Below, piece by piece: positions 5,232 to 30,022 of a stretch of 47,940 nucleotides of DNA (position 1 is the stretch's first letter; every line of letters begins with the position of its first letter). The DNA lies in contig JAPOST010000096.1 of the NCBI GenBank assembly GCA_026709535.1, positions 1 to 47,940 on the forward strand, given 5' to 3'. The notes below the pieces were generated by a model, which saw nothing but the letters and a program-made list of their open reading frames with translations, was not told where the DNA came from and searched no databases. Source of the DNA: Rhodospirillaceae bacterium. Its GTDB lineage: Bacteria > Pseudomonadota > Alphaproteobacteria > Bin65. The position numbers and the translations under genes were made by a program.

Positions 5232-6913
5232 CCAAATTGTGGATAGTGTGCAGCGAGGTAAGCCTCGTCAAACTTTTCGCTGGTCAGGTCGACTTCCAGA
5301 TTGCCTAACGATCTCTCGGCCGGGTCGCCATAACCGCCCGCACCAGGAGAATAAATCTCCAGCGCTTCTCCGGGGTGTATCGCTACGCCGGTGGGTTTGT
5401 TCGGCAGCCGTCGGGAGACGCCTTCTCTGTCGACGTGACGAAACTCGCCAGTCGCCCCGTAATGACCCCCAAAGACACCCCAAGGCTGATGTGTGAAGCG
5501 TTCACCAGCGCCATTGAAGGAACAGGAGTGTCCTACCGGTTCGACTACGCGTTTCAGACCCATGCCGCCCCGATATCGCCCGGCGCCGCCGGAATTCGGA
5601 ATCAGGCCATATGACCGGACACGCAGCGGATATTCCATCTCGATCGCTTCGACCGGCAGGTTGGACGTATTGGTGATGTGAACCTGCACGCCGTCCTTTC
5701 CATCGTTGTCCGATCGGCCGCCGAAGCCTCCCCCCAAAGTCTCAAGATACACATAGTCTTCACCGGAGTGCGGATCGACGCCCGAGAAGACAGCCGTGGT
5801 ATTGGCGCCGTTGGCCGCTCCAACTGCCGCTTCCGGCATCGCCGGGGCCAGTGCGCCCAGAATCACGTCGATGATCCGTTGGCAGGTGTTCGCCCGCGCG
5901 GCGACCGGAGCGGGAAAGGTCGCGTCCAGCAAGGTTCCTTTCTGGGTGATAAGCTCTGGTAGGTCGAGGACGCCCTGGTTGTTTGGTGCATCCGGATCAA
6001 GCAGGGCTTTCAAGGTGTAGCATACGGATGCTTGCGTGGCGTTGCGCGTGACATTGATGTTGCCATTCACCTGTTGTGCCGTGCCTGTGAAATCGAAACA
6101 GATGTCGCCGCGGTTGACGGTAACGGTCAGTTTGATCGGAATATCGAACGCGCCCACGCCGTCATCGTCCATGACGTCTTCGAATCTGTAGACGCCATCG
6201 GGAAGCCGCTTGATCTCTTCCCGGATCCTGTTGGATGTCCGGGTCACGATCTGGTCAAAACCTTCATGCATGGCCGACACGCCATATTGGGCTATCATGG
6301 CTGCCAGCCGATCATGGCCCAGACGGCAGGCGGCGATTTGGGCATGATAGTCGCCGCAGCGCTCGGCCGGCACACGAACGTTGAGCAGGATCATGTCCAT
6401 GATGTCTTCCTGCAATACGCCTTCGCGGAACAGTCGAATGACCGGGATTCGAAGTCCTTCCTGATAGATTTCTGTCAGCCCCCCTGCCATGCTGCCGGGC
6501 ACCGCGCCGCCGACGTCGGCGTGATGCGCGATGTTGCACATGAACGCTACCGGCGCGCCGTCGGCAAACACCGGCACAGCCATGTTGATATCCGGCAGAT
6601 GCGTGCCGCCTGCCACATAGGGATCGTTGGCGACGAACAGGTCTCCGTCGCGAACGTCATCGCCAAACCGGGTCAGCAGGCTTTCCATCAGCCCTTTCAT
6701 TGAGGCCAGATGAACTGGCAGCGAGGCGTCGGCCTGGACAATCAGCCGGCCATCGGCATCCATGATCGCCGTCGAGTGGTCACGCCGCTCCTTGATGTTG
6801 GTGGAATAGGCGCTTTTCATCAGGGAAACGAACGATTCATCCGCCACCGAGCGGAGCCCGTTCATCAGAATTTCGAGCGATACGGGGTCGAGTTGGGAAT
6901 GCAGGGTTTTCAC
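5210..6913 (-). CDS. hyuB: Hydantoinase B / oxoprolinase-family subunit
   Basis: This 567-residue protein matches the HyuB family (COG0146), the partner of HyuA in ATP-dependent lactam, hydantoin and 5-oxoproline hydrolases and in acetone-carboxylase relatives. Recognisable segments are VSLEILMNGLRSVADE at the N-terminus, FVANDPYVAGGTHLPD, IAHHADVGG, and the glycine-rich C-terminal run TLGGGFGGRSDNDG. It starts with GTG, and its first bases overlap the hyuA stop codon by 4 bases, indicating translational coupling. Its 3' end overlaps the convergent gntR end. With HyuA it likely opens a cyclic amide or related ring, or carboxylates a ketone. Context with a molybdenum hydroxylase and CoA ligases favours catabolism of a ring compound. 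The exact substrate is unknown. Confidence 0.9.
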   Translation of the reverse strand: MKTLHSQLDPVSLEILMNGLRSVADESFVSLMKSAYSTNIKERRDHSTAIMDADGRLIVQADASLPVHLASMKGLMESLLTRFGDDVRDGDLFVANDPYVAGGTHLPDINMAVPVFADGAPVAFMCNIAHHADVGGAVPGSMAGGLTEIYQEGLRIPVIRLFREGVLQEDIMDMILLNVRVPAERCGDYHAQIAACRLGHDRLAAMIAQYGVSAMHEGFDQIVTRTSNRIREEIKRLPDGVYRFEDVMDDDGVGAFDIPIKLTVTVNRGDICFDFTGTAQQVNGNINVTRNATQASVCYTLKALLDPDAPNNQGVLDLPELITQKGTLLDATFPAPVAARANTCQRIIDVILGALAPAMPEAAVGAANGANTTAVFSGVDPHSGEDYVYLETLGGGFGGRSDNDGKDGVQVHITNTSNLPVEAIEMEYPLRVRSYGLIPNSGGAGRYRGGMGLKRVVEPVGHSCSFNGAGERFTHQPWGVFGGHYGATGEFRHVDREGVSRRLPNKPTGVAIHPGEALEIYSPGAGGYGDPAERSLGNLEVDLTSEKFDEAYLAAHYPQFGQSSEKP

Positions 6914-8997
6914 GCAGCCTGTCTCCCGGCAAGGTGATTGGATTTTACGGAGATCGCAATATTACCGGCGTCATCAACGGTCAACTTGTCATCCGGAAAT
7001 ACGATGGTGGTCGAATCGAATTGGTCAATCACTGCCGGGCCGATGAAGGATGCGCCCGAAGCAAGATCGGCGCGCTGATAGACAGGCGTATCGACCGGAG
7101 CATCATCCTGGAACCACACCGGACGACGAGCGATGGGTGTGGCAGTCTCGGTCGAATCCGGCAAGTGTTCCGAACCTGCTGCGCCTCTTTCCACGCTCCC
7201 GACGGCAGTGATCCGAATATTGACGATTTCGATCGGTTCGCTGGCATTGTGAAAGCCGTAACGTTTCTCGTGCTCAGCATGAAAGGCCTGCTCGACTTCG
7301 GCGATGGCGGCGGGCCGCGGCAGTTCTTCGGGATTCGCTGCCGTCAGCACGACCGGCAGTTCGAAATTCTGGCCGACATAGCGCGCGTCAAGACTGACCG
7401 ATAGTGATTGGCTGTCTGGAACTACATCTTCCCCTTCGAACCATGCTCGCGCATCGCGCTCCAGATCTTCCAGCACCTCGTTGATCGCCGCCCAATTCGC
7501 CGCGTCGAGGGCAAGGCGCCCGCTGCGAACGAATTCCTCCTTGAAGTCCGATACGATCAGGCCCTGCGCACACAGGATTCCCGGCGTGTCCGGAACGACG
7601 ACATCGGACATGCCCAGGGCGCGGGCCACTTCGACGGCGTGCAGCGGGCCGGCGCCGCCGAAGGGCATCAGGGCATAGTCCTTCGGATCAAGGCCGCGCT
7701 TGACGGAGATGGTACGCACTGCGCGCACCATGTTCGCCACGACGATCCCGAGGATGCCTTGAGCGGCCTTTTCGGCCGAAACACCCAATTGCGTTGCGAT
7801 CGGCGTGATCGCGGCACGAGCTTTCGCTTCGTCCAAGGCCATCGCGCCGCCGACGAGGCCGCCACCCGACAACCGGCCGAGCACTAGGTTGGCGTCGGTG
7901 ACGGTCGGCTCTGTTCCGCCGCACCCGTAACAGGCCGGCCCCGGATCGGACCCTGCGCTGCGCGGCCCGACCTTGAGAAGACCGTCCCGCTCGAACCAGG
8001 CGATCGACCCTCCGCCGGCACCGACAGTATGTATGTGCACCATCGGCAAACGAACGGGAAACCCCGCAACATTGCCGCCCAGACTGACGCCTGGATCGTA
8101 GTTGCGAATCAGAGCCACATCGGCGCTGGTACCGCCCATGTCAAGCGTGATGACGTCGGGTTTTTTGGCCAGCCGAGCATTATGTACCGCTCCCACCGCA
8201 CCGGCAGCCGGGCCGGAAAGCGCCGTCCGGACCGGATAGGTCCTGGCGGTTTCGACGGACATCAAGCCTCCGCCGGATTGGTAGATCCGGATGGGTGCGT
8301 CTGGTGCAACGGCTTTCATCTCCGTGTCAAGATAATCGATGTAATCTCCGATCACCGGTTGCAGATAGGCATTTAGCACGGTGGTTGAGAATCGCTCATA
8401 TTCCCGGAACTCCGGCCACACTTCCGATGACAGCGACACCGGCATGTCCGGCCGACGGGCACGCAGCGCTGCTGCAATCTTGCGTTCGTGGGCAGGATCG
8501 ACAAACGAGAACAGGCAGCAGATGGCGCAGGCGTCTGGCTCACTGGCAACAACGGCGTCGGCCGCGGCGGCAAGACTGTTTTCGTCCAGGGCGATGATGA
8601 CGCCGCCCGGCCCGATACGCTCAATCACCTCGTAGCGCCGCTCGCGGGGGACAAGAGGCGCTGGATGATCCTTCTGCAATGAATACATGTGAGGCCGGGT
8701 TTGCCGGCCGATTTCTAGCAGATCGCGGAAGCCGTCCGTGGTCACCATGGCGACCTTGCCGCCGCGACGCTGGATCAGCGCATTGGTTGCGATCGTCGTG
8801 CCGTGGCACAGACGGGTGATATCAGCAGAATCGATCGCGAGCGCGGCGCACATCTCCCGCAGCCCTAAAACAATAGCCTCGCCCGGATTGCGGGGTGTTG
8901 ATGGTCGTTTGAAGACGCGCACCGCGCCGTCTTCCCTGCGGCAGGCATAGAAATCTGTAAACGTGCCGCCTACGTCGACGCCTACGAACCAGGCCAC
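6910..8997 (-). CDS. hyuA: Hydantoinase A / oxoprolinase-family subunit
   Basis: This 695-residue protein matches HyuA (COG0145), the ATP-binding subunit of hydantoinase/oxoprolinase-type enzymes. The N-terminal sugar-kinase-like phosphate loop FVGVDVGGTFTDF begins at residue 4. CHGTTIATNALIQRRGG follows, and the second nucleotide-site strand is LDMGGTSADVALI. The GTG at 8997 is chosen because GGAGG lies 7 bases upstream and it places the phosphate loop at the normal distance from the N-terminus. The same frame stays open upstream to 9582 but runs into the divergent gene. The gene begins the hyuAB operon and is divergent from the molybdenum-hydroxylase operon across about 108 bases that contain a strong palindrome. 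Confidence 0.93.
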   Translation of the reverse strand: MAWFVGVDVGGTFTDFYACRREDGAVRVFKRPSTPRNPGEAIVLGLREMCAALAIDSADITRLCHGTTIATNALIQRRGGKVAMVTTDGFRDLLEIGRQTRPHMYSLQKDHPAPLVPRERRYEVIERIGPGGVIIALDENSLAAAADAVVASEPDACAICCLFSFVDPAHERKIAAALRARRPDMPVSLSSEVWPEFREYERFSTTVLNAYLQPVIGDYIDYLDTEMKAVAPDAPIRIYQSGGGLMSVETARTYPVRTALSGPAAGAVGAVHNARLAKKPDVITLDMGGTSADVALIRNYDPGVSLGGNVAGFPVRLPMVHIHTVGAGGGSIAWFERDGLLKVGPRSAGSDPGPACYGCGGTEPTVTDANLVLGRLSGGGLVGGAMALDEAKARAAITPIATQLGVSAEKAAQGILGIVVANMVRAVRTISVKRGLDPKDYALMPFGGAGPLHAVEVARALGMSDVVVPDTPGILCAQGLIVSDFKEEFVRSGRLALDAANWAAINEVLEDLERDARAWFEGEDVVPDSQSLSVSLDARYVGQNFELPVVLTAANPEELPRPAAIAEVEQAFHAEHEKRYGFHNASEPIEIVNIRITAVGSVERGAAGSEHLPDSTETATPIARRPVWFQDDAPVDTPVYQRADLASGASFIGPAVIDQFDSTTIVFPDDKLTVDDAGNIAISVKSNHLAGRQAA

Positions 8998-9014
8998 GGC
9001 ATATCCTCCATGAT

Positions 9015-9037
9015 TATTTATACATATTGTATAAATA
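9015..9037. promoter_or_regulatory. Candidate operator palindrome, hyuA/molybdenum operon divergent promoter
   Basis: A perfect 10-3-10 inverted repeat, TATTTATACA-TAT-TGTATAAATA, lies in an AT-rich island between the divergent hyuA and molybdenum-subunit genes. Its position overlaps the -35 of the plus-strand promoter candidate and lies about 18 bases before the hyuA start. This is where a repressor could control both directions. The nearest regulator gene is the GntR/FCD protein at 4494-5231. Palindromes with ATACA/TGTAT half-sites fit that family in general terms. The protein-operator link is inferred. Confidence 0.6.
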
Positions 9038-9056
9038 TTGGGATCGTGTCTATAAG
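9028..9056 (+). promoter_or_regulatory. Candidate sigma-70 promoter for the molybdenum hydroxylase operon
   Basis: TTGTAT (9028-9033) and TATAAG (9051-9056) are separated by exactly 17 bases and match the -35 and -10 consensus at four and five of six positions. Transcription would begin near 9063, about 43 bases before the chosen ATG at 9106. The -35 hexamer is part of the right arm of the palindrome at 9015-9037, so repressor binding would block RNA polymerase. Confidence 0.5.
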
Positions 9057-9105
9057 GATTGAGATACCCTGTGCCGTGCGCAGTTGCCCGAAGCTTGGAG
9101 CCCTG

Positions 9106-12100
9106 ATGCCGGACTTCTCGATCCCGGAAGAAATTCGCCCCGAAGCGCGCCATGTCGGCCGGCGCATGCTGCGGATTGAGGATCGCACCCTGCTGCGCGG
9201 CGCAGGGGCGTTTGTGGATGACGCGCCGGTCAAGAAGGGGACGCTGCACGCCGCCTTTGTGCGATCGCCCCACGCGCATGCCGAGATCGTCAGCATCGAT
9301 GTGACGGAAGCTTTGGCCATGCCGGGAGTCTTCGCCGTGGTCACCGGCGAAGAGATGGCGGAGCAGACCGACCCCATGATCGTTGGGTTCGAGAACCCGA
9401 TCGATTATTATGGCCTGGCGGTCGGCAAGGTCCGCTATGTCGGAGAGCCCGTTGTCGTGGTGGCGGCGACCGACCGCTACAAGGCCGAAGACGCTGCCGA
9501 CCTGATTGCGGTCGCCTACAATGTCCTCCCCGCCACGATCGATCCGATAGAGGCATCGGAGCCTGATGCGCCGAAGCTGCATTGGCGGTCAGACTCGAAC
9601 TGTGTCTCGAAGCGACACTTTGTTCACGGCGAACCCGGCAAGGTCTTCGCCGAGACCGAAAATACGATTGCGATGACTATCCGCTACCCGCGCAACTCCA
9701 TCACGCCGATGGAGACTTACGCGATCATTGCGGAGGCCAACGGCGAGAGCGGCGGGTTCGATGTCCTGTCGAATTTCCAGGGGCCGTTTTCTGTCCATAC
9801 CGTCATGGCCCTAGCCCTGCGCATCCGGACCGCCGCTCTGCGTCACCGCAGCCCCAGGAATTCCGGCGGAAGCTTCGGGTCGAAGCTGGTGATCTTCCCT
9901 TATATCGTCGTGATGTGCGTGCTGGCCCGAAAGGCGCAGCGGCCCGTCAAGTGGATCGAGGACAGACTGGAGCATCTGTCCGCCTCCAGCGTTGCGCCCA
10001 ATCGGATCACAAAAATAGAGGCTGCTTACACGAATGACGGGATTGTCAAGGCGCTACGGCTGACCCATTGGGATGACCACGGTGCCTATTTGCGTGCACC
10101 CATGCCAGCGCCCATCTATAGAATGCACGGTGTTTCGACCAACGGATACGCAATCCGGCATCTGGAAGTCACGAACCATATCGTCGTGACCAACAAATGT
10201 CCGACCGGTGCGGTGCGCGGATTTGGCGGACCACAGCTGTATTTTGCCGTCGAGCGCATCATGCAGCGGATCTCCGTCCTGACAGGGCAGGATCAGCTTG
10301 ACGTGATGCGCAAGAACCTGATTGATGAGAATCAGTTTCCCTACAGGACCATCGCCGGGGCGTTGCTGGATAGCGGCGACTATCAGAAGACTATTGATGA
10401 AACGATCAAGGCAGGTGGCCTCGCACAACTCAAGGAACGGCAGGTCAAGGCGCGCAAGGAGGGTCACCTATATGGCATCGGCTATGCCTCCTGTGTCGAG
10501 CCGAGCCAGTCAAACATGGGTTACATCTCGACGCTCAAGACAGGTTTGGAGCGTGAACGGGCAGGTCCGAAGGATGGTGCCGTCGCGTCTGTGACCGTTT
10601 CTGTCGATGCGCTTGGATCAGTGAACGTCATTGGCGATTCGGTGCCACAAGGCCAAGGTCACCAGACGGCGCTTGCCCAGATTGTAGCCGATCAATTGGG
10701 CCTTGATACCGAAGATATCGTAGTATCCCTGGATACAGATACGGCCAAGGATGGCTGGTCGATCGCCGCCGGCAACTATTCGTGTCGGTTTGCGCCGGCC
10801 TCAGCGAGCGCGGCCCATCAGGCCGCCGTACGCGTACGGCAGAAGATGGCACGAATTGCAGCATCCCGGCTCAACGTAGCAGTTGAAGATATCGCGTTTA
10901 CCGAGGGCAAGATTCACGCCGTCAATAATCCGGACAACGCGATCCCGTTCTATCGGGTAGGAGGGTTGGCGCATTGGTCGCCGTCCAGTCTCCCCGATGA
11001 TGTGGAGCCGGGTATCCGCGAGACGTCAATGTGGAATGCTCCGGAGCTGACGCCCACGACGGCCAACGACGAAATCAATACGTCGCTGGCATACGGCTTC
11101 GGATTTGATTTCTGCGGCGTGGAAATCGATGCGTCCACCGGCATTGTCAACGTCGACAAGTATGTTTCGGCTCACGATTGTGGCACTGTTCTGAATCCGG
11201 GACTTGCTGAAGGACAAATTCGTGGATCTTGGGCCTCGGCCTATGGCGCGACGTTTCTGGAAGAGTTCTGCTACGATGCTGACGGCGCTTTCCGGTCTGG
11301 CACCTTTGCCGAATACCTGGTGCCGACGGCGGCCGACCTGCCAGACTTGACACTGGTCCATCCCACACCCCATCCGTCGCCCTATACCCGACTGGGCGCG
11401 AAGGGAATTGCCGAAGGCAACCAATACAGCACACCTGTTTGCATCGCAAACGCCGTCGCCGACGCGCTGGGTATCGATGACGTACAACTGCCATTGAAAC
11501 CGGCCAAAGTTCTCGAATGGCTGGCTCCCGAAGAGCCTCCGCCGTCGTCGAATGCCATCCTTGGATCCGCAGCGCGCCTCGAACCGGCGACACTAGGCCA
11601 ACCGACGATCAGCGGAAGCGACGAGATGCAAATGCCAGCAACCCCGGCGCAGATTTGGGATATGCTGCTAGACCCGAACCGTCTGGCGCGGATCGTACCT
11701 GGTTGCGAGAAACTTGAGGCCTCGGGCGACAAAGGCTTTACCGGTACCGTGATTCTGGGTGTTGGGCCTGTGAAAGGTCGTTTTGATGCGCGAATCGACT
11801 TGATCGATCTGGAGAAACCGCACAAGGCTACGCTTGTGGGGTCGGCACATGGTGCGCTGGGCGCCTCGCGCGGAACCGGAGCGTTCGAGTTGATCGGCAA
11901 TGATGGCGGCACTCTGGTGCGATACAGCTATTCTGTTGAGTTGTCGGGGAAGGTAGTCGCTGTTGGCGGACGCATGATTCGCGGGGCGGCCAAACAGTTG
12001 ATCGACCGATTCATGCACGCCTTGGTGCAGCAGGCTAGCCGCGACGATGGACCGCGCGATCCTTCGGGCGGTCTTGCCGGCCGTCTGAAACGCTTGGTGC

Positions 12101-15152: not shown

Positions 15153-16343
15153 GTGAAAGTTGTTCATGATGAACCGTCCGCTCATGCGCATGACGGGCCG
15201 GATCTGACCAAAATTCTACCGTCGCTGAAAGAATCGCTGCGGCTGGTTGTCATCTACAATGGCGACAAGTCACAGCCCGGCTCGGTCATTCAGGAAACCA
15301 CGAACCCTCGGGCGTCGAAATCCTACCGACCAGTGGCGGAGGACATCGCCGACTGCCTGGAGAAGGCCGGTTTTCGCCATGTCACGCTGCTGCCCGACGA
15401 CATCAGCTTGCCAGCGCAAATCATCCGGCATGACCTGCAGTTTGCATGGATCAACTCTGCAGGGATCCAAGGCTACGACTCAGCCGGCCATACGTCGAGT
15501 ATGCTGGAGATGATGGGGATTCCCTATGTAGGACACTCTCCCGCCGCCGCGCTGATTCTGGACAACAAACATCTGTTCAAGCAGGCCGCGACAGGGCTGG
15601 GAATTGCCACCGCGCCCTTCACCATCTGGAACCCCGTCACCCATGGGAGTGCGCATCGGGACGCTGTCTTTTGGGAGCGTGCCTTCAACGCCTACCAAGG
15701 ACCGTTTATCGTCAAGCCGGTATCTGGCCGGGCGTCGTTGCATGTTCACTTTATCGACGACCGTTCCGGCCTTGCTCAAGTCGTCGAGAAAGTCTACGCT
15801 GACACGCACAATACGGTGTTGATTGAGACCTTCCTGTCCGGGCGGGAATTTACGATCGCGGTGGCGGGGCCGACGCGGTATCGCAAAGGCGTCGTCGATC
15901 GCCTTGATCAACCCTTTGTCATCTCGGTCGCCGAGCGCATCCTGACGCACGGCGAACGTATCTTCACATCCATGGACATCAGCCCCATCACGACCAAACG
16001 GGCCAGTATCTTGGACCCCGCTGCCGAACCGGATATTTACGACGAACTGGTCAGGATTGGCCGGAACGTATTCATGCAACACCAATTGGGTGCCTTGATC
16101 CGGGTGGACGTTCGGGCAGATGTGACCGGTCGGCTTTGTGTACTGGAGGTCAACCCGAAGCCCGACCTGACGCGTCCCCGGAAAGACAAGACGCCGTTGG
16201 TGGCTATGGGCCTGCCCGCACTGGACATGTCCTACGAGGACCTGTTGTTGAGCTTGCTGCTGGATCGCCTGCAGTTCTATTGCGATCACCGGCCCGGCGC
16301 GATCCGGCACATCGCGGATCTGGCCATGTTGCTCGAAACTTAG
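15153..16343 (+). CDS. ATP-grasp enzyme, D-alanine-D-alanine ligase-like
   Basis: This 396-residue protein has the ATP-grasp fold of D-Ala-D-Ala ligases, which join two substrates through an acyl-phosphate. It shows the N-terminal segment YVGHSPAAALILDNKHLFK, the ATP-binding strand FIVKPVSGRAS, the LIETFLSGREFTIAVAG strand, and the metal-binding end motif LEVNPKPDLTRP, equivalent to EVNTLPG in true ligases. Divergence at that motif and the lack of cell-wall genes nearby argue against a peptidoglycan role. The GTG start at 15153 has a weak ribosome site, but no better in-frame start is near. The gene is 2 bases from the sensor-MFS gene, so the two form an operon. It may ligate an amino acid or peptide moved or sensed by its neighbours. 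Confidence 0.82.
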   Translation: MKVVHDEPSAHAHDGPDLTKILPSLKESLRLVVIYNGDKSQPGSVIQETTNPRASKSYRPVAEDIADCLEKAGFRHVTLLPDDISLPAQIIRHDLQFAWINSAGIQGYDSAGHTSSMLEMMGIPYVGHSPAAALILDNKHLFKQAATGLGIATAPFTIWNPVTHGSAHRDAVFWERAFNAYQGPFIVKPVSGRASLHVHFIDDRSGLAQVVEKVYADTHNTVLIETFLSGREFTIAVAGPTRYRKGVVDRLDQPFVISVAERILTHGERIFTSMDISPITTKRASILDPAAEPDIYDELVRIGRNVFMQHQLGALIRVDVRADVTGRLCVLEVNPKPDLTRPRKDKTPLVAMGLPALDMSYEDLLLSLLLDRLQFYCDHRPGAIRHIADLAMLLET

Positions 16344-16345
16344 AG

Positions 16346-18754
16346 ATGTCCGGGAACATGACGTCCGCAACCGCTGAACCGCCGCAAACCAGCACGCCGA
16401 AGGCCCGCGCGAGCCTTTTGTACGGGCTGATCATGCTGATCGTCGCCTTGGCGTCGCTCTGGCTGCTGATCTATGTCGGTTATGCCGAGGGTCGGCGAAC
16501 CTATCAGAATCTTGTTGTCGACAAGATGATCGCGCAGGCCGAAATAGTGCAGACCCCTCTGAACACCTATCTGCGTGCCGGTTTGCCGCTAGAACACTTT
16601 CCGGGGTTTGCGCAGATCGGCAGGCGCGTGTTGTCTTCGGACCCGTCGATCCTTTCCATCACGGTGACCGACAGCAGCGGGAAACCGATTTTCCGCGAAG
16701 CGCGAGAGGGTGTCGAAGACTTCGGAAACCTGCCTCTTCCGCCCGACGGTGAGCGGATGCTGGCGCCAGATGATCCGACAACGATCCGGGCTCTGCTCCG
16801 CCTGCGCGACCGGTTTGAAACGGTCGGCGCGGTTGTGGTCGCGACGCCGCGTAGCGCTGTGGACTCGGTGGCGCGCAGGTATTTTTTGCTTGTGGTTCTG
16901 GTGGCCAGCGGCCTGGCAATTCTGTTTGCCTTGGGTGCCGTGTTGTTCAAGCGGCGTCTGGACGGCGCTCGATTCCCATGGCTTTACATCAGCTTCGGTG
17001 CGGCATTCGCTGCCGTCGCCGCCGCAGTGGTGTTGAACTTGGTCTCCCTCTATACCGGCGGCCTGCAGGGCAGGGCGCAAGCGCTGGCCGAATCCCTGCG
17101 ACAGCGCGTGGCTCCCGTGGTGGAATTCGAACTGGATATGAAGGACCTGGGCGGTTTGCGCGAGACGTTCCAGCAGTACAGGCATCTGAACAGCGATATC
17201 CAGGCCATCGGCATGATGCGGGGTGACCAAGTTCAGATCCACACTGACAGTGCGCGCGAAGGCACCACATGGCAGCCTCGTGCTGAAACCTACGAATTCG
17301 CTTCGACGATCGGCGCCACCAACTTGCGAATCGCGGTAACCCTGCCAACCAGCGTGGTCTGGCGCGCCGTTGCCAAGAACATCAGGAATTTCATTGCATT
17401 GTTCCTTGCAACTGTACTGTTCGCCGGTGTTCTCCTGCGTCTTGGTCACGTCTTGAGCGATAACCGAGAGGCGGCGAAAGATGCGCACGGGTCAACAGTG
17501 TCCGCGAATGCGACGAGAGCCATTGAATGGCTCAAGCTTCTGTTCTTTCTGGCAGTCTTTTTTGAACACCTGCCGGTGAGCTTTCTGCCGCAAATGCTGC
17601 GCGACGCTGCTGCCGCTGGCGGTTATGGCGCTGCAGCCGCCTCGTGGGCTTTCACTACCTATTTCCTGTGTTTCCTCATCGTACTGGTACCGGCTACCAA
17701 GATCGCCGACCTTCATGGTCCGCGCGCCTTGTTGTGGACCGGTGCGCTACTGGCAGGCAGCGGCGCACTGCTGCTCGCGCTTTCGGACTGGTTCCCGGCG
17801 CTTGCGGCCGCCCGGGGCCTTTCAGGGCTGGGTCAGGGGGCGCTGCTGATCGGCACTCAGACTTATATTGTGACTCACGCACCTAGGAACATGCGCACCC
17901 GCGCTGCAGCGGTGATCGTCTTCGGCTTCAACGGCGGCATGATCTCCGGCACCGCGATCGGCTCGCTGCTGGTAAATTACATCACCGCCCAAGGCGTATT
18001 CCTGTTGGGCGCTGCGACCGCCGCTGTGATCGCGTTCGCTGCGCTGACGATGATGCCGCGCATTGCGGGCGCCGCTGCGAGCAGCGTTGCACTGAATGCC
18101 AGCTTCTTCCAGGCCAGCAGGCGGGTGCTGACGAATCTCAAGTTCTTGCGGGTCATATGCCTGATAGGTCTGCCGTCCAAGGCCGTCCTCACAGGCATCG
18201 TCGTCTTCGCCATGCCGCTCGTGTTAAACGGAATGGGTTATCCGCCGGAAGATATCGGCCAGCTGATCATGATCTATCCATGTGGCGTGTTGCTGGCGAG
18301 CGGCTGGATTTCGCGTCGTGTGGACAATTTTGGCGGGGCGTTGAAAGCCCTGGCTGCTGGCGCCCTGATCGCTGGCGGCGGCATGATGACCGTCGGCCTG
18401 ACCGGGTGGGCCGACACACCATCGATTTTGACGTCTGGTAATCTGGAGCCGGTGATCATAGGCGTCGGGATCTTCCTGCTGGGTCTGGCCCATGGATTAA
18501 TCAATGCGCCGATCATCTCTTACGTGGCGAGTATGCCTCTGGCGCAGGAAATGGGTGCCAATCAGGTCACGTCGCTGTATCGCGTACTGGAACGCGCGGG
18601 CCATGTGGCGGGGCCGATACTGGCGGGACAATTGTTGCTGATGACTGGTGGTGGACCGATCTCGGTCGGGTGGGCCGGTATCGTCGCCATATTGCTGGGC
18701 ATTCTGTTCCTGCTGACCATGCTCGGCCGTCACTGGCAAGTAAACACAAGATAG
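16346..18754 (+). CDS. MFS permease with two N-terminal membrane sensor modules
   Basis: This 802-residue membrane protein combines three parts. The first sensor has a TM at about 24-47, a periplasmic Cache-like domain to about 178, and a TM at about 178-201. The second has a TM at about 211-238, another extracytoplasmic domain, and a TM at about 348-368. From about 396 to 795 follows a complete 12-TM major facilitator permease, with the loop segment VPATKIADLHGPRALLW matching the conserved MFS 2-3 loop. MFS carriers rarely carry such sensors. The architecture suggests a carrier gated by, or signalling about, an external ligand. The ATG at 16346 is 3 bases after the ATP-grasp stop (a second ATG is at 16358), and the binding-protein gene follows directly. 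Function is inferred. Confidence 0.8.
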   Translation: MSGNMTSATAEPPQTSTPKARASLLYGLIMLIVALASLWLLIYVGYAEGRRTYQNLVVDKMIAQAEIVQTPLNTYLRAGLPLEHFPGFAQIGRRVLSSDPSILSITVTDSSGKPIFREAREGVEDFGNLPLPPDGERMLAPDDPTTIRALLRLRDRFETVGAVVVATPRSAVDSVARRYFLLVVLVASGLAILFALGAVLFKRRLDGARFPWLYISFGAAFAAVAAAVVLNLVSLYTGGLQGRAQALAESLRQRVAPVVEFELDMKDLGGLRETFQQYRHLNSDIQAIGMMRGDQVQIHTDSAREGTTWQPRAETYEFASTIGATNLRIAVTLPTSVVWRAVAKNIRNFIALFLATVLFAGVLLRLGHVLSDNREAAKDAHGSTVSANATRAIEWLKLLFFLAVFFEHLPVSFLPQMLRDAAAAGGYGAAAASWAFTTYFLCFLIVLVPATKIADLHGPRALLWTGALLAGSGALLLALSDWFPALAAARGLSGLGQGALLIGTQTYIVTHAPRNMRTRAAAVIVFGFNGGMISGTAIGSLLVNYITAQGVFLLGAATAAVIAFAALTMMPRIAGAAASSVALNASFFQASRRVLTNLKFLRVICLIGLPSKAVLTGIVVFAMPLVLNGMGYPPEDIGQLIMIYPCGVLLASGWISRRVDNFGGALKALAAGALIAGGGMMTVGLTGWADTPSILTSGNLEPVIIGVGIFLLGLAHGLINAPIISYVASMPLAQEMGANQVTSLYRVLERAGHVAGPILAGQLLLMTGGGPISVGWAGIVAILLGILFLLTMLGRHWQVNTR

Positions 18755-18766
18755 TAGAGATTGGAC

Positions 18767-19963
18767 GTGGACAAGCGGAACTCAACCATCGCCGTAATTG
18801 GCGCCTGCCTGATGCTGTTCCTGACCGCGGGCGAGATCGTCGCCCAGGATCGGATGGCGCGGGTCGGCAAGTGGTTCAAGATTGGCCCCCTGGCCTTGAA
18901 ACACTGGAAGGTGGCCGTCCATCCGGATGATCCGCTTCGTGTCACGTTGAAGGCCAAGCCTGGCGTCTACAGCGGCGCCACCGGCTTCAAGAAAGTCATG
19001 GTGATATATCCACGCAAGTCGACGGCCTACGACATCGCGATGACCGAAATTGCTGCCACTTACGCCAACAAGGGCATCCGCGCGCAATTCGAGGTAGTGA
19101 ATTTTGACCGGAAGGCGGCGCGTGGCCATGCGCTGGTTGATGAAGCGGCCGGCAAAGGCTATTCGCTGATTTACTCCATGGGTTCTCAGACCACCGCCTG
19201 GCTGTGGAAAAACCGGCGCGACGGCAAAGTACCTATCGTGACGGTTTGCTCCAAGGACCCAGTTCTGCTGGGCCAGGTCAAGGACTATAAATCCAGCAGC
19301 GGAGTCAACTTCGCGTTCACGTCGTTGAACGTTCCGGTCGACGTCCAGATCGTCTATCTGAGGCAGTTGAAGCCCAAATTGAAGAACGTTGTCATCATGG
19401 TCGACGAGAATAATGTCAGCGCGGTGAAAACACAGGCCATCCCGATGGAAAAGGCGCTCGAAGCGGAAGGGATCAATGTCTTCCGTGTCTCCGTTACCGA
19501 TCCCAAAGTCGCTGGGGCTCAACTGGAAGTCATGGTGCCTGCTGCGGTGGCGCGCCTGCGCGAGACGGATCCGGATCTCAAGAACAGCCTGTTCTGGATC
19601 ACAGGCAGCACATCGGTTTTTGCGGAAATCAGGACGATCAACGAGCACTCCGACAGGGTGCCCGTCCTGAGCGTGGTGCCGGATATCGTCCAGAAGGGAC
19701 CTGATAGCGCGACGCTGGGCATTGGCGTAAGTTTCCAGAGTAACGCGCAGTTGGCGGCCAAAATTGGATCCGACATCCTAGAGGGGAAGGTAGAAGCAAA
19801 GGACCTCAAGGTGGCCATCGTGTCGCCGCCAAATATTGCCATCAGCTTCCTGCGCGCCCGCAAAATAGGCATGAAAATCCCGTTTAGCCTGTTCGAGGCG
19901 GCAGATGACATTTACGGTTATGGCGGTCAACCGCTGCGCCGCCGCGGCAAGACTGTGAACTGA
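18767..19963 (+). CDS. Orphan ABC_sub_bind-family periplasmic binding protein
   Basis: This 398-residue protein has an N-terminal signal peptide (charged DKRN, then a hydrophobic stretch ending near AGEIVAQD). The two-lobed fold is that of the ABC_sub_bind family (COG2984), whose members bind tryptophan, tyrosine and related compounds or act as sensor inputs. Family-like strands include KVMVIYPRKSTAYDIA, GYSLIYSMGSQTTAW, VVIMVDENNVSAVKTQA and VLSVVPDIVQKG. The GTG at 18767 is chosen because AGAGA lies 6 bases upstream. An in-frame TTG at 18761 has no room for a ribosome site. No ABC permease or ATPase gene is present, so it probably serves the neighbouring sensor-MFS protein or the Cache kinase rather than an ABC importer. 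Confidence 0.85.
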   Translation: MDKRNSTIAVIGACLMLFLTAGEIVAQDRMARVGKWFKIGPLALKHWKVAVHPDDPLRVTLKAKPGVYSGATGFKKVMVIYPRKSTAYDIAMTEIAATYANKGIRAQFEVVNFDRKAARGHALVDEAAGKGYSLIYSMGSQTTAWLWKNRRDGKVPIVTVCSKDPVLLGQVKDYKSSSGVNFAFTSLNVPVDVQIVYLRQLKPKLKNVVIMVDENNVSAVKTQAIPMEKALEAEGINVFRVSVTDPKVAGAQLEVMVPAAVARLRETDPDLKNSLFWITGSTSVFAEIRTINEHSDRVPVLSVVPDIVQKGPDSATLGIGVSFQSNAQLAAKIGSDILEGKVEAKDLKVAIVSPPNIAISFLRARKIGMKIPFSLFEAADDIYGYGGQPLRRRGKTVN

Positions 19964-20534: not shown

Positions 20535-22685
20535 CTAGGTGTCTGATGATTTCGGCAGTTCGATAATCATTTCGGTGAATTCACCGGTTTTCGTCTCGAC
20601 GCGGATAGTACCCCCATGCCGCCGTATGATATCATTGGAAAGCGCAAGGCCGAGCCCAGTGCCTTCGTTGGTCGGCTTGGTTGTGAAGAAGGGGAGAAAG
20701 ATTTTCTCGACCACCTCATCCGGGATGCCGTTGCCATTGTCTCTAACACGGATTTCCACGCTACCGCCCAGGTTTCGTGTCATCAGCTGCAACAACGGCT
20801 TGTAGTCGACGTCGCCTTCCTTCATCTCGACTGCGTCCGGGTCGATCTTCTTTAACGCCGTCTGCTTTTCGTGGGTCGCGTAACAGGCGTTGGTCACCAT
20901 GTTCAGGAATACTCGGCTGAGGTCTTGAGGAATTACCTCGATTTCGCCGATCTCTGAGTCGAAATCCTCCTGAATCTCAATGTTGAAATCTGAATCATCG
21001 GCCCGCGCGCTATGATAGGCCAGGTTGGCGTGTTCCGATAGCAATACATTGATATTGGCCGGAAGGCGCTGGCTTGAACCGCGGCCCATCTGCAGCATGC
21101 TCTGGACGATATTGTTCGCGCGTTGGGCGTGCTCCTGAATTGTCTCAAGGTTGCCGGTCAGGTCTCCGGCGATCTCTTCGATCAGTTCAACGGTGTCGTC
21201 TTTCTCCTGACCATCCACGTCATCCTTGTTATTGGCTGCAGTCTTTCGCTCTTCGGCAAGACGGCTGATTTCTTCCAACATTTCATTCAGCAGTTCTCCC
21301 GAGACTTCGGAGAAATTCTTGATGAAATTCAATGGGTTCTTGATCTCGTGGGCGACGCCGGCGGTCAATTCGCCGAGGGCGGCCAGTTTCTCTCTTGTGA
21401 TGATCTGATCCTGGGCCTTTTCCAAGTCACTCAGCGTGCTTTCGAGAGATGCATTCTTGGATTTGAGTTCTTCGGCCAGGCTCTCGACCAGATTCGTCTC
21501 ATCAATAACCTGATGCAAGGGCCGAATGAACAAGCGACGCGAGAACCAGATTGCGAAAAACGCAATAAATAGAAGTACGACACCCAATGCAGCCACCAGC
21601 CTGACATAGTTGTCGTCAAGGGCTGCGGTGAAATCCGCTTCGGGAATCACTGTTCCAATGAACCAATCCTGCTTGGCCAACGGAGTCAGATTGACAAAGT
21701 AACGCTTGCCGCTGTCGGGCTCGGTATAAAGGCGAAACTGTTTCTTGTTGGCCGCGAGGTTCTTGGTATCCAATGCTGCGCTCGCGATCTTCAATATCGG
21801 GTTCTTGGTCTGGTTGAGTGGCGTCAACTCCAATCGGGAACTGCCTGTCTGAGTGCGGGTCACTTCCGACTTGTTCTTGAAGGCGATCATCCGCCCCTCG
21901 CGGTTGATGATGAAAGCTGCACCGGACCGCACGGATTTGATGGTGCCAAGATATCTGGAGATACGTTCCAGTTCGATGGCAATACTGACGACGCCGACCA
22001 ATTCACTGTCCTTGCGGAAGGTGATCGCTGAGTTCAGACCAGGAATGCCGCTGGTGGCGAAAATGTAAACGCTGGTCCAGACATGGGAATCTGGTTGGGC
22101 GATAGCGCGCTTGTACCACTGACGTTGTGTGGCGTTGTAGATGTTTTGCCGTTCTTCCGCACCGATTGGCAGTATATCGTCTTTGCTGTCGACCTTCAGG
22201 GACATTATCTGTCGGCTGGCGGTGCGTGTGTCTGGGTTCCAGATGCTTTCGACCAAGCGGTAATTCTTGCCATCAAGCCGCTGTGCACCGTAGAAATCGC
22301 CATCAGGCTTACCGAAGCTGACCCACGAGAAATGCCTGTTGGCCAGCAGGAAGGACATGAATACGGGCTCGCGCTTGGCCCGGTCTTTGATATCGAACGC
22401 CCCTTCAGTCAGCATCCTTCGGATCGCGCCTTGCGCCGCAATAGCCGAGGAAAAGACCTTGTTGGCCTCAAGGGAGACGCTGGCGACGATTTCGTCGGTC
22501 AGCTGCCTGATCATCTCCTCCGTATTGTCCCGGGACGCGAAATGCCAAGGCCCGTAAACCGCTGCGGCCGTGATAATCACAAGGATCAAGGCGAAAAAAA
22601 TATTACCAACGCTCAGCCCGACACGCAGTTTTTCCTGCCCGGCTTGAACAGTCTTCAGTGACGACTGGTTTTCTATTTCCGACAA
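20535..22685 (-). CDS. Cache-domain sensor histidine kinase
   Basis: This 716-residue kinase starts with a cytoplasmic tail, a TM at about 27-48 and a long periplasmic Cache-type sensor (about 50-355). A second TM (about 358-382) and a HAMP/coiled-coil linker follow. The phosphoacceptor segment is GVAHEIKNPLNF (His at 446). The ATP-binding domain shows DNGNGIPDE, FFTTKPTNEGTGLGLALSND and a C-terminal ELPKSSDT. It should autophosphorylate in response to an external small molecule. The start is TTG with GGG 7 bases upstream, and no other start gives the first TM a normal context. No response regulator gene lies in the window, so its partner is elsewhere. It faces the ATP-grasp/sensor-MFS/binding-protein operon, which suggests a shared ligand. 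Confidence 0.9.
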   Translation of the reverse strand: MSEIENQSSLKTVQAGQEKLRVGLSVGNIFFALILVIITAAAVYGPWHFASRDNTEEMIRQLTDEIVASVSLEANKVFSSAIAAQGAIRRMLTEGAFDIKDRAKREPVFMSFLLANRHFSWVSFGKPDGDFYGAQRLDGKNYRLVESIWNPDTRTASRQIMSLKVDSKDDILPIGAEERQNIYNATQRQWYKRAIAQPDSHVWTSVYIFATSGIPGLNSAITFRKDSELVGVVSIAIELERISRYLGTIKSVRSGAAFIINREGRMIAFKNKSEVTRTQTGSSRLELTPLNQTKNPILKIASAALDTKNLAANKKQFRLYTEPDSGKRYFVNLTPLAKQDWFIGTVIPEADFTAALDDNYVRLVAALGVVLLFIAFFAIWFSRRLFIRPLHQVIDETNLVESLAEELKSKNASLESTLSDLEKAQDQIITREKLAALGELTAGVAHEIKNPLNFIKNFSEVSGELLNEMLEEISRLAEERKTAANNKDDVDGQEKDDTVELIEEIAGDLTGNLETIQEHAQRANNIVQSMLQMGRGSSQRLPANINVLLSEHANLAYHSARADDSDFNIEIQEDFDSEIGEIEVIPQDLSRVFLNMVTNACYATHEKQTALKKIDPDAVEMKEGDVDYKPLLQLMTRNLGGSVEIRVRDNGNGIPDEVVEKIFLPFFTTKPTNEGTGLGLALSNDIIRRHGGTIRVETKTGEFTEMIIELPKSSDT

Positions 22686-26977: not shown

Positions 26978-28927
26978 TTGACGCTGGACCGGCTTGGCTT
27001 GGCAAGCACGAAGGTAGGCCGCGCGCTGGCCTTGGCACTCGCAGTGCTCACCCTCTATCTCGTGGTCATTGCGCTGATTGACGAAAACATCCTGCGTCTC
27101 GGCGTGATCGCAATTTCCGCGTTGATCGTGTTGTTCATCGAGCCGCTGGCGATCAAATACCCGACGTCATCCCCCCTGCGACGGCTGTTCAGCTGGATTA
27201 TCGACGGGATATTGCTGATCGGTTTTCTGATCACGGTCTACTGGTTCTGGATCACTGCTGATGAGCTGTGGGAGGGCGTCTTCGATTTCGAGACCTCCCA
27301 CATCGTCACCGGTTACTTCGGTTTGATCGTCATTCTGGAACTCACCCGGCGGACGTTTGGCCCACCGCTGATGCTGGTGACTCTGCTGTTCATCGTTTAT
27401 GCTGTATTAGGGCGCGATCTGCCCTGGATTCTCCAACACGCCGGGATCGATTGGACAGAGATTATCAGGACGACCTGGTACAGCCAGGACGGCGTCTTCG
27501 GCAGACCGGCCAGTATCGTCGCCAACCTGGTGCTGATCTTCATCATCTTCGGCGCGATTCTTGAAGCCAGTGGCGCCGGCGCGATTCTTTTGAAGATGTC
27601 CTTTGCCGCCACAGCAGCGATTCGTGGCGGTCCGGCTCACGCCGCGATCATGGCGAGCGCCCTGTTCGGAACGATGTCCGGCAGTGCGATGGCCAACGTA
27701 GTAGGAACCGGCGTCTTCACCATCCCAATGATCAAGAAACGCGGCTTCAAGCCACCCTTCGCCGGCGCGGTGGAAGCGGCCGCAAGCTGTTCCGGCCAGG
27801 TGACGCCGCCGATTATGGCCGCGGCTGCTTTCTTCGTCGCCGACTATACGGGCACACCGTACCTGATCCTGATCGTGGCAGCGTTGATGCCAGCCTTTTT
27901 CAAGTACATCAGCATCTTTGCTCAGGTGTATGCCGAGGCCATCCGGCTGGATATCAAGCCAATACCCAAGGCGGAACGCGAGAGGCTGACCCGGTATGAC
28001 TGGTTGCAGTCGCTGCGGTTCTTCCTGCCTGTCGCCGCTCTGATTGTCGTGCTGATTGAAGGTCGGTCACCGGCGATGGCGGCCGCGATCGCGATGGCGC
28101 TGGCGCTGGTCATGTCCTTTGCCTTGGACCTGATGGGGCGGGCGAGAGGCCTGAAGGCCCTGGGCGGTGACCCTCTCCGATATGTGAAAGCGATTGCTGA
28201 ATCCGGGTATCAGTGTGCGCGGATCATGGTGGCGGTCGGCGCGATCGGCATCATCATCGGCGTGGTGAACGAAACCGGAGTTGGCATTCGGTTCGCCCAA
28301 CTCCTCTCGGTTGGCAACGGCAGCCTGTTCTTGGCGTTTGTCTTCGCGATGCTGGGGTCCCTCGTGCTGGGCATGGGCTTGCCGACACTGCCTGCCTACC
28401 TGATCATCGTCCTCATTCTGGGTCCGGCTATCGTTCAGTTGGGCGAGGATGCCGGGGTCACGTTACTGGCTGTCCACTTGTTCGTTTTCTATTTCGCCGC
28501 GCTGTCGTCGCTGACGCCGCCTGTTGCGCTGGCCGCCTACGCGGCCGCCCCGATCGCGGGCGCCAAGCCATTCGAAACAGCCATACAGTCGGTGCGTATC
28601 TCCCTGGTCAGCTTCATCATTCCGTTCGTTTTCGTCTTCAATCCGTCGCTACTGCTGATCGACAAGTTCGACATCATCGATTTTGTTTGGGTAAGCGCGC
28701 GATTGCTTCTGGCGATCTGGATGGTTGCCACCGGGTTTGCCGGCTACGACTCGACCGGCAGATTGTCGCTGCCTATCCGTATTCTGCGCCTTGGCGCCGG
28801 ATTCGTCATGCTCTACCCGTCACTCGTTTTTGAAGCTGCAGCGTTCGCGGTGGGCTCTATCTTGTATATAATGGGCTGGATTGTCCGACCGCGGACACGA
28901 AAACCGGCTGATGCCCCATCCGCCTGA
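26978..28927 (+). CDS. TRAP transporter fused permease (DctQM, TAXI type)
   Basis: This 649-residue membrane protein fuses the small 4-TM DctQ-like and the large 12-TM DctM-like parts of a TRAP carrier, as is usual for TAXI systems. It should import a carboxylate or related solute with sodium or protons. Recognisable DctM segments are SGAGAILLKMSFAATAAIRG, GPAHAAIMASALFGTMSGSA, AASCSGQVTPPIMAAAAFFV, and GMGLPTLPAYLIIVLILGPA. The start is TTG, supported by GGGGGAG 5 bases upstream. The solute-binding gene follows 54 bases later, and the CoA-transferase pair precedes it on the same strand. Confidence 0.93.
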   Translation: MTLDRLGLASTKVGRALALALAVLTLYLVVIALIDENILRLGVIAISALIVLFIEPLAIKYPTSSPLRRLFSWIIDGILLIGFLITVYWFWITADELWEGVFDFETSHIVTGYFGLIVILELTRRTFGPPLMLVTLLFIVYAVLGRDLPWILQHAGIDWTEIIRTTWYSQDGVFGRPASIVANLVLIFIIFGAILEASGAGAILLKMSFAATAAIRGGPAHAAIMASALFGTMSGSAMANVVGTGVFTIPMIKKRGFKPPFAGAVEAAASCSGQVTPPIMAAAAFFVADYTGTPYLILIVAALMPAFFKYISIFAQVYAEAIRLDIKPIPKAERERLTRYDWLQSLRFFLPVAALIVVLIEGRSPAMAAAIAMALALVMSFALDLMGRARGLKALGGDPLRYVKAIAESGYQCARIMVAVGAIGIIIGVVNETGVGIRFAQLLSVGNGSLFLAFVFAMLGSLVLGMGLPTLPAYLIIVLILGPAIVQLGEDAGVTLLAVHLFVFYFAALSSLTPPVALAAYAAAPIAGAKPFETAIQSVRISLVSFIIPFVFVFNPSLLLIDKFDIIDFVWVSARLLLAIWMVATGFAGYDSTGRLSLPIRILRLGAGFVMLYPSLVFEAAAFAVGSILYIMGWIVRPRTRKPADAPSA

Positions 28928-28981
28928 CTTGTCAGGCAGCCAAATCCGGGAATTGGGACCAGAGAGCGAGAGAGAAATAAC

Positions 28982-30022
28982 ATGATATACAGAATCGTAA
29001 TTGCCGTCGCGATGACCCTTTCCCTCGGCGGCGCAGTGGCGCAGGCCAAGGATTTCTACAAGATGGGCAGCCTCGCCCCAGGCATGTCGCCCTTCACGAT
29101 CAATACAGCCTTCGCCACCATCGTGAACAAGCATGTCAAAGACGTGCAGATACAGGTGTCGGCGACTGGGTCCGGCATGCGCCACCAGCTTCTGGTTTCG
29201 AAAGGCAAGATGGATTTCTACATGTCCTCGCCCGTCGGTCAGTGGTTGATGGAAAGCCAGAACGGCCCGTTCAAGAAACTCAAGAACGGCCAGGAACTTT
29301 CCAGCAGGCTGCGCCACATTTTCACCTATGAGATCGGGCCTTATCATTACGTGACCTACGCCGGATCCGGCATCAAGACGATCGCCGACCTCAAGGGAAA
29401 GAAGGTATTCATCGGCCCGCCCGGCGGTGCTGCGACCCGAGTTGTCGCCATCATGATCAAGGCGCAGTCCGGTCTTGAGGCAGGCAAGGACTATACCAAG
29501 ATCAATATGGGGTGGGGCGCGGCCATTCAGGCCTTCCAGGACAAGAAATTCGATGTTCTGATCTTCCCGACCAATGCGCCGAGTCCGGCTATCCAGCAGA
29601 TCGCGCTGAACAACAAATTGCGTCTGCTGTCAGTGGACGTATCCAAACAAGGCGGCTTGCTGCGAACCCCTGGCCGGACGATCCGGACTATCGATCCGAC
29701 GGTTTACGGCAAGAACATGGTCAACACCGAACCGGTTTCGACTCTGGGCGCCCTCGTAGGCGTCGGCGTACGCGCCGACATGCCAGAGGATGTGGTCTAC
29801 AGGATCACCAGGGCTTTCTGGGAGAACGTGAGCGAGGCGCACGCTACGGCAGTGTGGATGAAGAACGCAGTCAATCTGAGAGTGGCTCTTGTCGTTGTGC
29901 CTCACGGCTTGCATCCGGGCGCGGCACGCTACTATATGGAGAAGGGGCTGAATATCCCGGCTGCCTACCGGCTTGGCCAGAAGTGGGACGCCAAATCAAT
30001 GACCTTCAAGAGCAAGCAATAG
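28982..30022 (+). CDS. TAXI-family TRAP solute-binding protein
   Basis: This 346-residue periplasmic protein delivers ligand to the fused TRAP permease just upstream. It has a clear signal peptide (MIYRIVIAVAMTLSLGGAVA then QAK). TAXI-family features follow: YKMGSLAPGMSPF, VQVSATGSGMRHQLLVSKGKMDF (split across lobe 1), the KGKKVFIGPPGGAATRVV segment, and AAIQAFQDKKFDVLIFP. Ligands of the family include glutamate and other carboxylates, and the ligand here is unknown. A purine-rich ribosome site precedes the ATG. Confidence 0.92.
   Translation: MIYRIVIAVAMTLSLGGAVAQAKDFYKMGSLAPGMSPFTINTAFATIVNKHVKDVQIQVSATGSGMRHQLLVSKGKMDFYMSSPVGQWLMESQNGPFKKLKNGQELSSRLRHIFTYEIGPYHYVTYAGSGIKTIADLKGKKVFIGPPGGAATRVVAIMIKAQSGLEAGKDYTKINMGWGAAIQAFQDKKFDVLIFPTNAPSPAIQQIALNNKLRLLSVDVSKQGGLLRTPGRTIRTIDPTVYGKNMVNTEPVSTLGALVGVGVRADMPEDVVYRITRAFWENVSEAHATAVWMKNAVNLRVALVVVPHGLHPGAARYYMEKGLNIPAAYRLGQKWDAKSMTFKSKQ

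Follow-up and report, generated by a model that had tools for sequence, protein, structure and literature searches.

An 802-residue protein, encoded in a stretch of 47,940 nucleotides (the whole of which is called the window here), joins two extracytoplasmic Cache/PAS-like sensor modules to a complete MFS permease. It belongs to a conserved gene set, which an earlier note on the protein does not mention, formed by an enzyme, the carrier, a solute-binding protein (SBP) and often a Cache signalling protein; this set, rather than the protein by itself, is the unit. The preferred reading, to which a probability of about 0.45 is given, is that of an exporter-type MFS carrier whose Cache pair regulates it from outside; the SBP would act as co-receptor, and the enzyme encoded next to it would make the cargo. 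There is a real chance that the fusion and its partners represent a new class of regulated carrier.

Architecture of the fusion protein

The features of the fusion gene and its product are as follows.

16346..18754, + strand: fusion protein, two TM-Cache-TM modules and MFS; ORF of 802 aa, ATG to stop
16415..16471, + strand: TM1, residues 24-42, by hydropathy
16487..16849, + strand: sensor 1, extracytoplasmic, Cache/PAS-like, about residues 48-168, from models
16886..16942, + strand: TM2, residues 181-199, by hydropathy
16988..17044, + strand: TM3, residues 215-233, by hydropathy
17048..17365, + strand: sensor 2, extracytoplasmic, Cache/PAS-like, about residues 235-340, from the model
17390..17446, + strand: TM4, residues 349-367, by hydropathy and the full-length model
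17507..18730, + strand: MFS permease domain of 12 helices, residues 388-795, by Pfam MFS_1 and the model

The ATG sits just past the stop of the preceding gene, and on the opposite strand the in-register reading is interrupted by stops. The layout claimed in the earlier note, TM-sensor-TM twice and then 12 MFS helices in 802 residues, is confirmed by the ORF, hydropathy, Pfam and structure models. That note had also proposed to look for folded extracytoplasmic domains in residues 1-380, and an AlphaFold2 model of this half, built on a 7-row alignment, shows two (mean pLDDT 81.2, pTM 0.74). The full-length model (pLDDT 75.4, pTM 0.67) adds 12 long helices. After TM4 the hydropathy peaks are those of the MFS helices, and between TM4 and MFS helix 1 there is only a short linker, in which hydropathy, model and Pfam reveal no HAMP domain. 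A sequencing or assembly error joining two genes was rejected, because the same frame is open throughout in all 16 other full-length relatives that were aligned.

In Pfam scans of the protein, MFS_1 alone scores above its cut-off (residues 399-757, E 4.9e-30) and residues 1-387 match no family at that level, so that databases probably annotate such fusions merely as plain MFS transporters. No kinase, SLC5 or STAC domain reaches the Pfam cut-off in the chain; by Pfam and model, the MFS domain alone follows the sensors, and no output signalling domain is present.

Distribution

A search of related loci returned six relatives, five of them alphaproteobacterial and the sixth from Pseudobacteroides cellulosolvens, the latter with 25% identity over residues 38-773. 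Any match was found in 15 of 385 genomes of the class sample and the whole fusion in 10. The phylum sample gave matches in 5 of 398 genomes, all belonging to the same class: four fusions, including that of the window's own genome, and one single-sensor cousin. The order sample gave 2/11, again including the window's genome, and the order of genome G386 gave 9/36. Since none of six congeners carries it, the distribution of the fusion is patchy. The single hit among 245 genomes of the clostridial class sample was the query's own genome, and tblastn against plasmids gave no match at E 1e-30. Both sensor regions, with their invariant residues, are retained from alphaproteobacteria to a clostridium.

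The two sensor domains

Each sensor occupies the whole extracytoplasmic stretch bounded by its two TM helices, as judged by hydropathy and the model. In the model of the sensor half the same order occurs twice: one long and one short helix, then a small beta sheet, then another long helix. Model and structure alignment agree on a PAS-like antiparallel sheet that comes after a long N-terminal helix. The comparison with Cache/PAS-like folds, also suggested in the earlier note, was made with VIA-align, and solved extracytoplasmic PAS/Cache domains match both sensors. Sensor 1 matches WalK (4ywz; Z 11.5, rmsd 3.0, 130 residues), CitA (8biy; Z 10.6, rmsd 2.8, 110 residues) and DcuS (3by8; Z 9.8, rmsd 3.3, 121 residues), and sensor 2 matches citrate-bound CitA (8bgb; Z 10.5, rmsd 2.3, 102 residues). 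As modelled, then, both are Cache/PAS-like extracytoplasmic folds. They are called so by fold and not as Pfam members, because no Pfam Cache model matches the window's own sensors above cut-off; among 16 relatives one weak match was obtained (E 0.017).

The similar layouts of the two halves had led the earlier note to suggest a duplication. Profile-profile comparison of modules 1 and 2 gives E 2.9e-6 with a probability of 88%, against E 0.032 and 1.6% for a reversed-profile control; by this measure the modules are homologous to each other. The underlying alignment excludes the partial L009 and L004, along with 150 residues upstream in L045. From these data a duplication within the gene is no likelier than a fusion of two older single-sensor genes. 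In a tree of 84 sensor domains (quick search, SH-aLRT support only), the first modules, whether or not an MFS domain follows, group together (support 98), as do the second modules (support 98), so that the sensor pair probably arose once. Each of the four sensor classes falls in one group, the branching between classes not being settled by this tree. It was computed without the r-labelled rows, many of which are single-sensor proteins matched twice, and without s_L092_2, s_L094_1 and both L038 double-sensor rows.

Residues R51 and G79 of the sensor half and Y236, R254 and N282 of sensor 2 are invariant in 17/17 full-length rows. The sensors are more variable than the MFS part, with a mean column identity of 42% versus 50%.

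The carrier domain and the direction of transport

Structure alignment of residues 388-795 retrieves complete MFS carriers at Z about 40: VMAT2 (9kq8; Z 40.7, rmsd 2.7, 366 residues), YajR (3wdo; Z 39.0, rmsd 3.2, 383 residues) and NorA (9b3k; Z 38.3, rmsd 3.0, 369 residues). The fold matches include importers. The window's MFS part alone gave no match in the PDB up to E 1, for which reason a 16-row profile was used; its best matches were NorA, YajR, QacA-type proteins and VMAT. Symporter models (aromatic acid/H+, lactate) also score on the domain. By profile and fold the domain is thus closest to proteins of the drug:H+ antiporter type, from which export would be the likely direction.

MFS carriers are known by a motif A with an Asp and a motif B arginine, and exporters of the drug:H+ antiporter type also by a motif C, GPxxGG, in TM5. 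In the fusion family R490, the motif B arginine, is invariant in 17/17 full-length rows, together with Q497, K612, E749, R750 and H753, and the invariant charges among these residues of the MFS helices suggest a working carrier. The motif A Asp is not conserved. The TM5 motif reads G-x-A-I-G-S in the window and its close kin and G-P/T-A/S-I-G-G in five cousins, a motif-C-like GxxIGG; since the fusion family's own version is altered, export cannot be read directly from it.

Neighbouring genes

Three further genes of the window enter the argument.

15153..16343, + strand: ATP-grasp ligase, Ddl-like, 396 aa; Pfam Dala_Dala_lig_C, E 2.6e-12
18761..19963, + strand: SBP of ABC_sub_bind/TrpX type, 400 aa; NCBIfam TrpX, E 6.6e-11, which falls below the model cut-off
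20535..22685, - strand: dCache sensor histidine kinase, transcribed towards the operon; Pfam dCache_1, HisKA, HATPase_c

The ligase gene ends 2 bases upstream of the fusion gene and the SBP gene begins 6 bases downstream of it. Neighbours were counted by profile searches over all ORFs of each locus, considering those loci in which the flank is present, and Pfam scans were limited to chosen neighbour genes. All 16 relatives with an upstream flank have a Ddl-like ATP-grasp gene immediately before the fusion, and all 14 with a downstream flank have an SBP gene immediately after it, frequently with an overlap of a few bases. The ligase residues R317, D319, E332 and N334, which have a catalytic role in Ddl, are invariant in 5/5. 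A role as the housekeeping D-Ala-D-Ala ligase was considered and rejected, since a far stronger Ddl (E 1.6e-36) is encoded on another contig. Orthologues of the SBP match PF04392 (L006, 4.6e-14; L010, 2.5e-16). Scans of window genes near the SBP showed no ABC permease or ATPase, and searches for RNA families around the operon gave none at threshold.

A dCache membrane protein is frequently found near the set of ligase, fusion and SBP. The window's dCache kinase, behind whose start no ORF of response-regulator size occurs within a kilobase, shares a blastp cluster with five neighbours in L005-L008 and L030, which carry Guanylate_cyc and are class III adenylate cyclases; related input halves are thus combined with swapped outputs, a histidine kinase in the window and an adenylate cyclase in the other five loci. 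Elsewhere the signalling neighbours are of other kinds: a dCache-GGDEF-EAL protein upstream in L036, PAS/GAF kinases in L031 and L032, and a SpoIIE-type PP2C in L038.

In a more distant clade of seven fusions the ATP-grasp gene is missing (0/7), and five of the seven carry instead, within 2.8 kb upstream, genes for a TauD-family oxygenase and for an SBP; of the remainder, L099 has just 473 bases upstream and L100 has neither gene. A run of TauD, SBP, a protein of about 400 aa, the fusion and a convergent 385-/386-aa gene is kept in L096 (5063-12140), L097 and L098. In L096, the one member of this clade for which these genes were scanned, the last-named gene and the one for the protein of about 400 aa encode, between them, a TPR and a homocitrate-synthase-like protein, and such a run is possibly a biosynthetic set for the cargo. 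The association of the carrier with two unrelated sorts of cytosolic enzyme, ATP-grasp and TauD, fits the export of a product.

The same neighbourhood could be read in the opposite direction. The SBP would take a solute and pass it to the MFS domain, with the Cache pair as a docking platform, and the ATP-grasp enzyme would modify the imported solute. The strict and often overlapping placement of the SBP gene behind the carrier gene and the lack of ABC partners among the genes scanned near it would fit such an importer, and a similar argument has been made for TAXI-GltS (PMC12344293). It is nevertheless held to be rather unlikely: the SBP gene also stands beside sensor pairs that lack an MFS domain (L039, L083-L085), the nearest MFS relatives by profile and fold are mainly exporters, and no SBP-fed MFS was found in those parts of the open-access literature that were searched.

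Cousins with separate or missing parts

A profile built from five cousin proteins was searched against 289 genomes of the class, and cousin sensor-MFS proteins were found in 16 of them, the first five being sCache-HAMP-MFS proteins. In Pfam scans of five cousins, HAMP lies between sensor and MFS in four and sCache_3_2 is seen in three, the best match (3.5e-5) reaching 24.3 bits where the cut-off is 28.4. All 16 loci have a separate TM-sensor-TM gene next to the cousin carrier. An SBP of ABC_sub_bind type is near it in 15/16, the contig ending at the remaining one, and 11/16 have a PP2C (9) or a cyclase alone (2) within about 4 kb. HAMP domains are signal-relay elements. Their presence in the cousins suggests control of the carrier by the sensor and not the other way round.

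The sensor pair also occurs by itself. Double-sensor ORFs of about 400-470 aa, in which neither MFS nor any output is recognised, are divergent from SBP and PP2C genes in L039, L083, L084 and L085, so that an MFS-less double sensor stands beside both SBP and PP2C in four of five loci (L082-L085, L039). The fifth, L082, has the sensor pair and the PP2C, and the SBP was not found at that locus; the 1,072-aa ORF that contains the pair there overlaps the PP2C gene of the opposite strand, and its first 700 residues were treated as spurious. It is with the sensor pair, therefore, and not with the MFS domain that the SBP appears to be associated, which suggests that SBP and Cache pair form a sensing unit, coupled here to an MFS domain and elsewhere to a phosphatase.

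Other cousins bear on the possibility that the MFS domain is no longer a bulk carrier, and that together with the Cache pair it senses and signals in trans to the neighbouring kinase, cyclase or phosphatase. Signalling genes are near the set in most loci. Furthermore, L041-L043 and L094 encode a second sensor protein with a degenerate MFS-like domain (profile E 2.6e-4, probability 42%, 319 columns; reversed, 0.43), and in L092 a 971-aa protein (6634-9549, - strand), adjoining a single-sensor gene, is composed of sCache-HAMP, a second TM-flanked region and a SpoIIE-type PP2C, the sCache-HAMP being in this case fused directly to the phosphatase. On the other hand, the charged MFS residues are invariant in 17/17 fusions and the enzyme gene is tightly linked in 16/16, and such a pure transceptor is considered unlikely. 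That the protein is an ordinary MFS carrier whose Cache pair has a structural role or is a vestige, as the lack of Pfam Cache matches and the greater variability of the sensors would permit, is very improbable given the retention of both sensors and their invariant residues from alphaproteobacteria to a clostridium and the HAMP domains of the cousins.

Divergent twin pairs of sensor genes are found in L042 (6448-9095 and 9378-12232) and, likewise, in L043 (6187-9026 and 9314-11973). One pair encodes a single-sensor protein and a sensor-HAMP-MFS protein, the other a single-sensor protein and a sensor protein in which the MFS-like domain is degenerate, an arrangement that looks like joint work of paralogues with and without a carrier function.

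Proposed mechanism

In the regulated exporter preferred here, a secondary carrier of a drug:H+ antiporter-like MFS branch would have its activity set from outside by a built-in Cache pair. The ATP-grasp ligase, or the TauD-type oxygenase in the other clade, would produce a small molecule in the cytosol, and the MFS domain would export it. A periplasmic SBP may capture this product or a related cue outside and dock on the Cache pair, which could relay the event through its four helices to the MFS domain, for gating or feedback. A dCache kinase or cyclase encoded nearby may pick up this signal too and use it to control genes. The direction of export, the identity of the cargo, the docking of the SBP and the gating are all inferred. 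Against this reading count the symporter scores, the importers among the fold matches, the altered TM5 motif and the lack of conservation of the motif A Asp, the fact that SBPs usually serve uptake, and the absence of a Pfam Cache match and of HAMP from the window's protein. The earlier suggestion of a ligand-gated carrier or transceptor is a fair one, and it is strengthened by the HAMP between sensor and MFS in the cousins.

A more ambitious and distinctly doubtful version of the regulated exporter is a chemical feedback loop, in which a Cache-gated, SBP-assisted MFS is exporter and receptor at once, in an autocrine or quorum-type circuit. The ligase product would be exported, the SBP and Cache pair would measure it outside and throttle its export, and the Cache kinase, cyclase or phosphatase would report it to the cell. 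On this reading evolution would have linked one sensor-SBP core variously with MFS carriers, PP2C phosphatases and cyclases.

Relation to known systems

Several known systems share single elements with the set. BacD and BacE of the bacilysin system are a ligase and an MFS exporter, as here, but they are unfused and BacE is not known to have a Cache domain. LuxP and LuxQ likewise pair an SBP with a membrane receptor of Cache type; they are unfused too, and LuxQ is not known to carry a transporter. In UhpC/UhpB, DcuB-DcuS and LysP-CadC the sensors are separate proteins and the carriers are not known to have fused extracytoplasmic receptor domains. As in the fusion, a carrier is linked to a signalling partner in these three; UhpC, for example, transports glucose-6-phosphate and has a histidine kinase as its interaction partner (PMC7096432).

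The SLC5/STAC kinases CbrA, CrbS and RpuS contain a whole transporter and signalling parts in one chain (PMC7096432, PMC9100948), and the Kuenenia ammonium transporter-kinase also joins a transporter to signalling parts (PMC5764959). In both the transporter stands at the input end (PMC7096432, PMC5764959) and a cytoplasmic kinase supplies the output, whereas in the fusion extracytoplasmic receptors are the input and the transporter is the sole recognisable output. Transporters that drive kinases are thus known; if the preferred reading is true the arrow is reversed, and a receptor sets a carrier, in the cousins through a HAMP relay.

With the Cache receptors DcuS, CitA, WalK and the dCache chemoreceptors the fusion shares both the TM-Cache-TM layout and the fold. 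In those receptors the output is a kinase, a methyl-accepting domain, a cyclase or something similar, and in the fusion an MFS domain follows instead; carriers would, if the reading holds, join the known outputs of Cache domains. According to a 2016 census, Cache domains were identified exclusively in proteins bearing output signalling domains, and its main text has none of the words 'transporter', 'MFS' and 'permease' (PMC4822843). A transporter-fused Cache domain could escape that census, because its models came from proteins with signalling outputs.

An SBP gene is linked to a secondary carrier in TRAP, TTT and TAXI-GltS as well, the last of which was claimed as a new SBP-dependent secondary transporter from gene neighbourhoods, with fusions, in a paper whose main text does not mention MFS (PMC12344293). 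The fusion differs from all three in that the carrier is an MFS with receptor domains, that the SBP is of the ABC_sub_bind type, and that this SBP also adjoins a receptor pair without a carrier. If the reading is true, MFS becomes a candidate partner of solute-binding proteins. No description of a Cache-MFS or SBP-MFS system was found in searches of open-access literature, subscription papers being mostly outside this coverage. The combination of enzyme, carrier, SBP and Cache kinase or cyclase offers a compact genetic system in which a small molecule could be sought.

Other features of the loci

In the Pseudobacteroides locus (L010, 5856-8722) the gene set follows immediately after genes for a winged-helix AAA ATPase and an eCIS_core-domain protein that are read from the same strand, neighbours that recall contractile injection loci. 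In the window itself, a DctM-type TRAP permease is followed by an NMT1_3/TAXI-type binding protein at 26978-30022, an ordinary-looking TAXI-TRAP pair, and genes for hydantoinase/oxoprolinase A and B are adjacent at 5210-9582 on the - strand.
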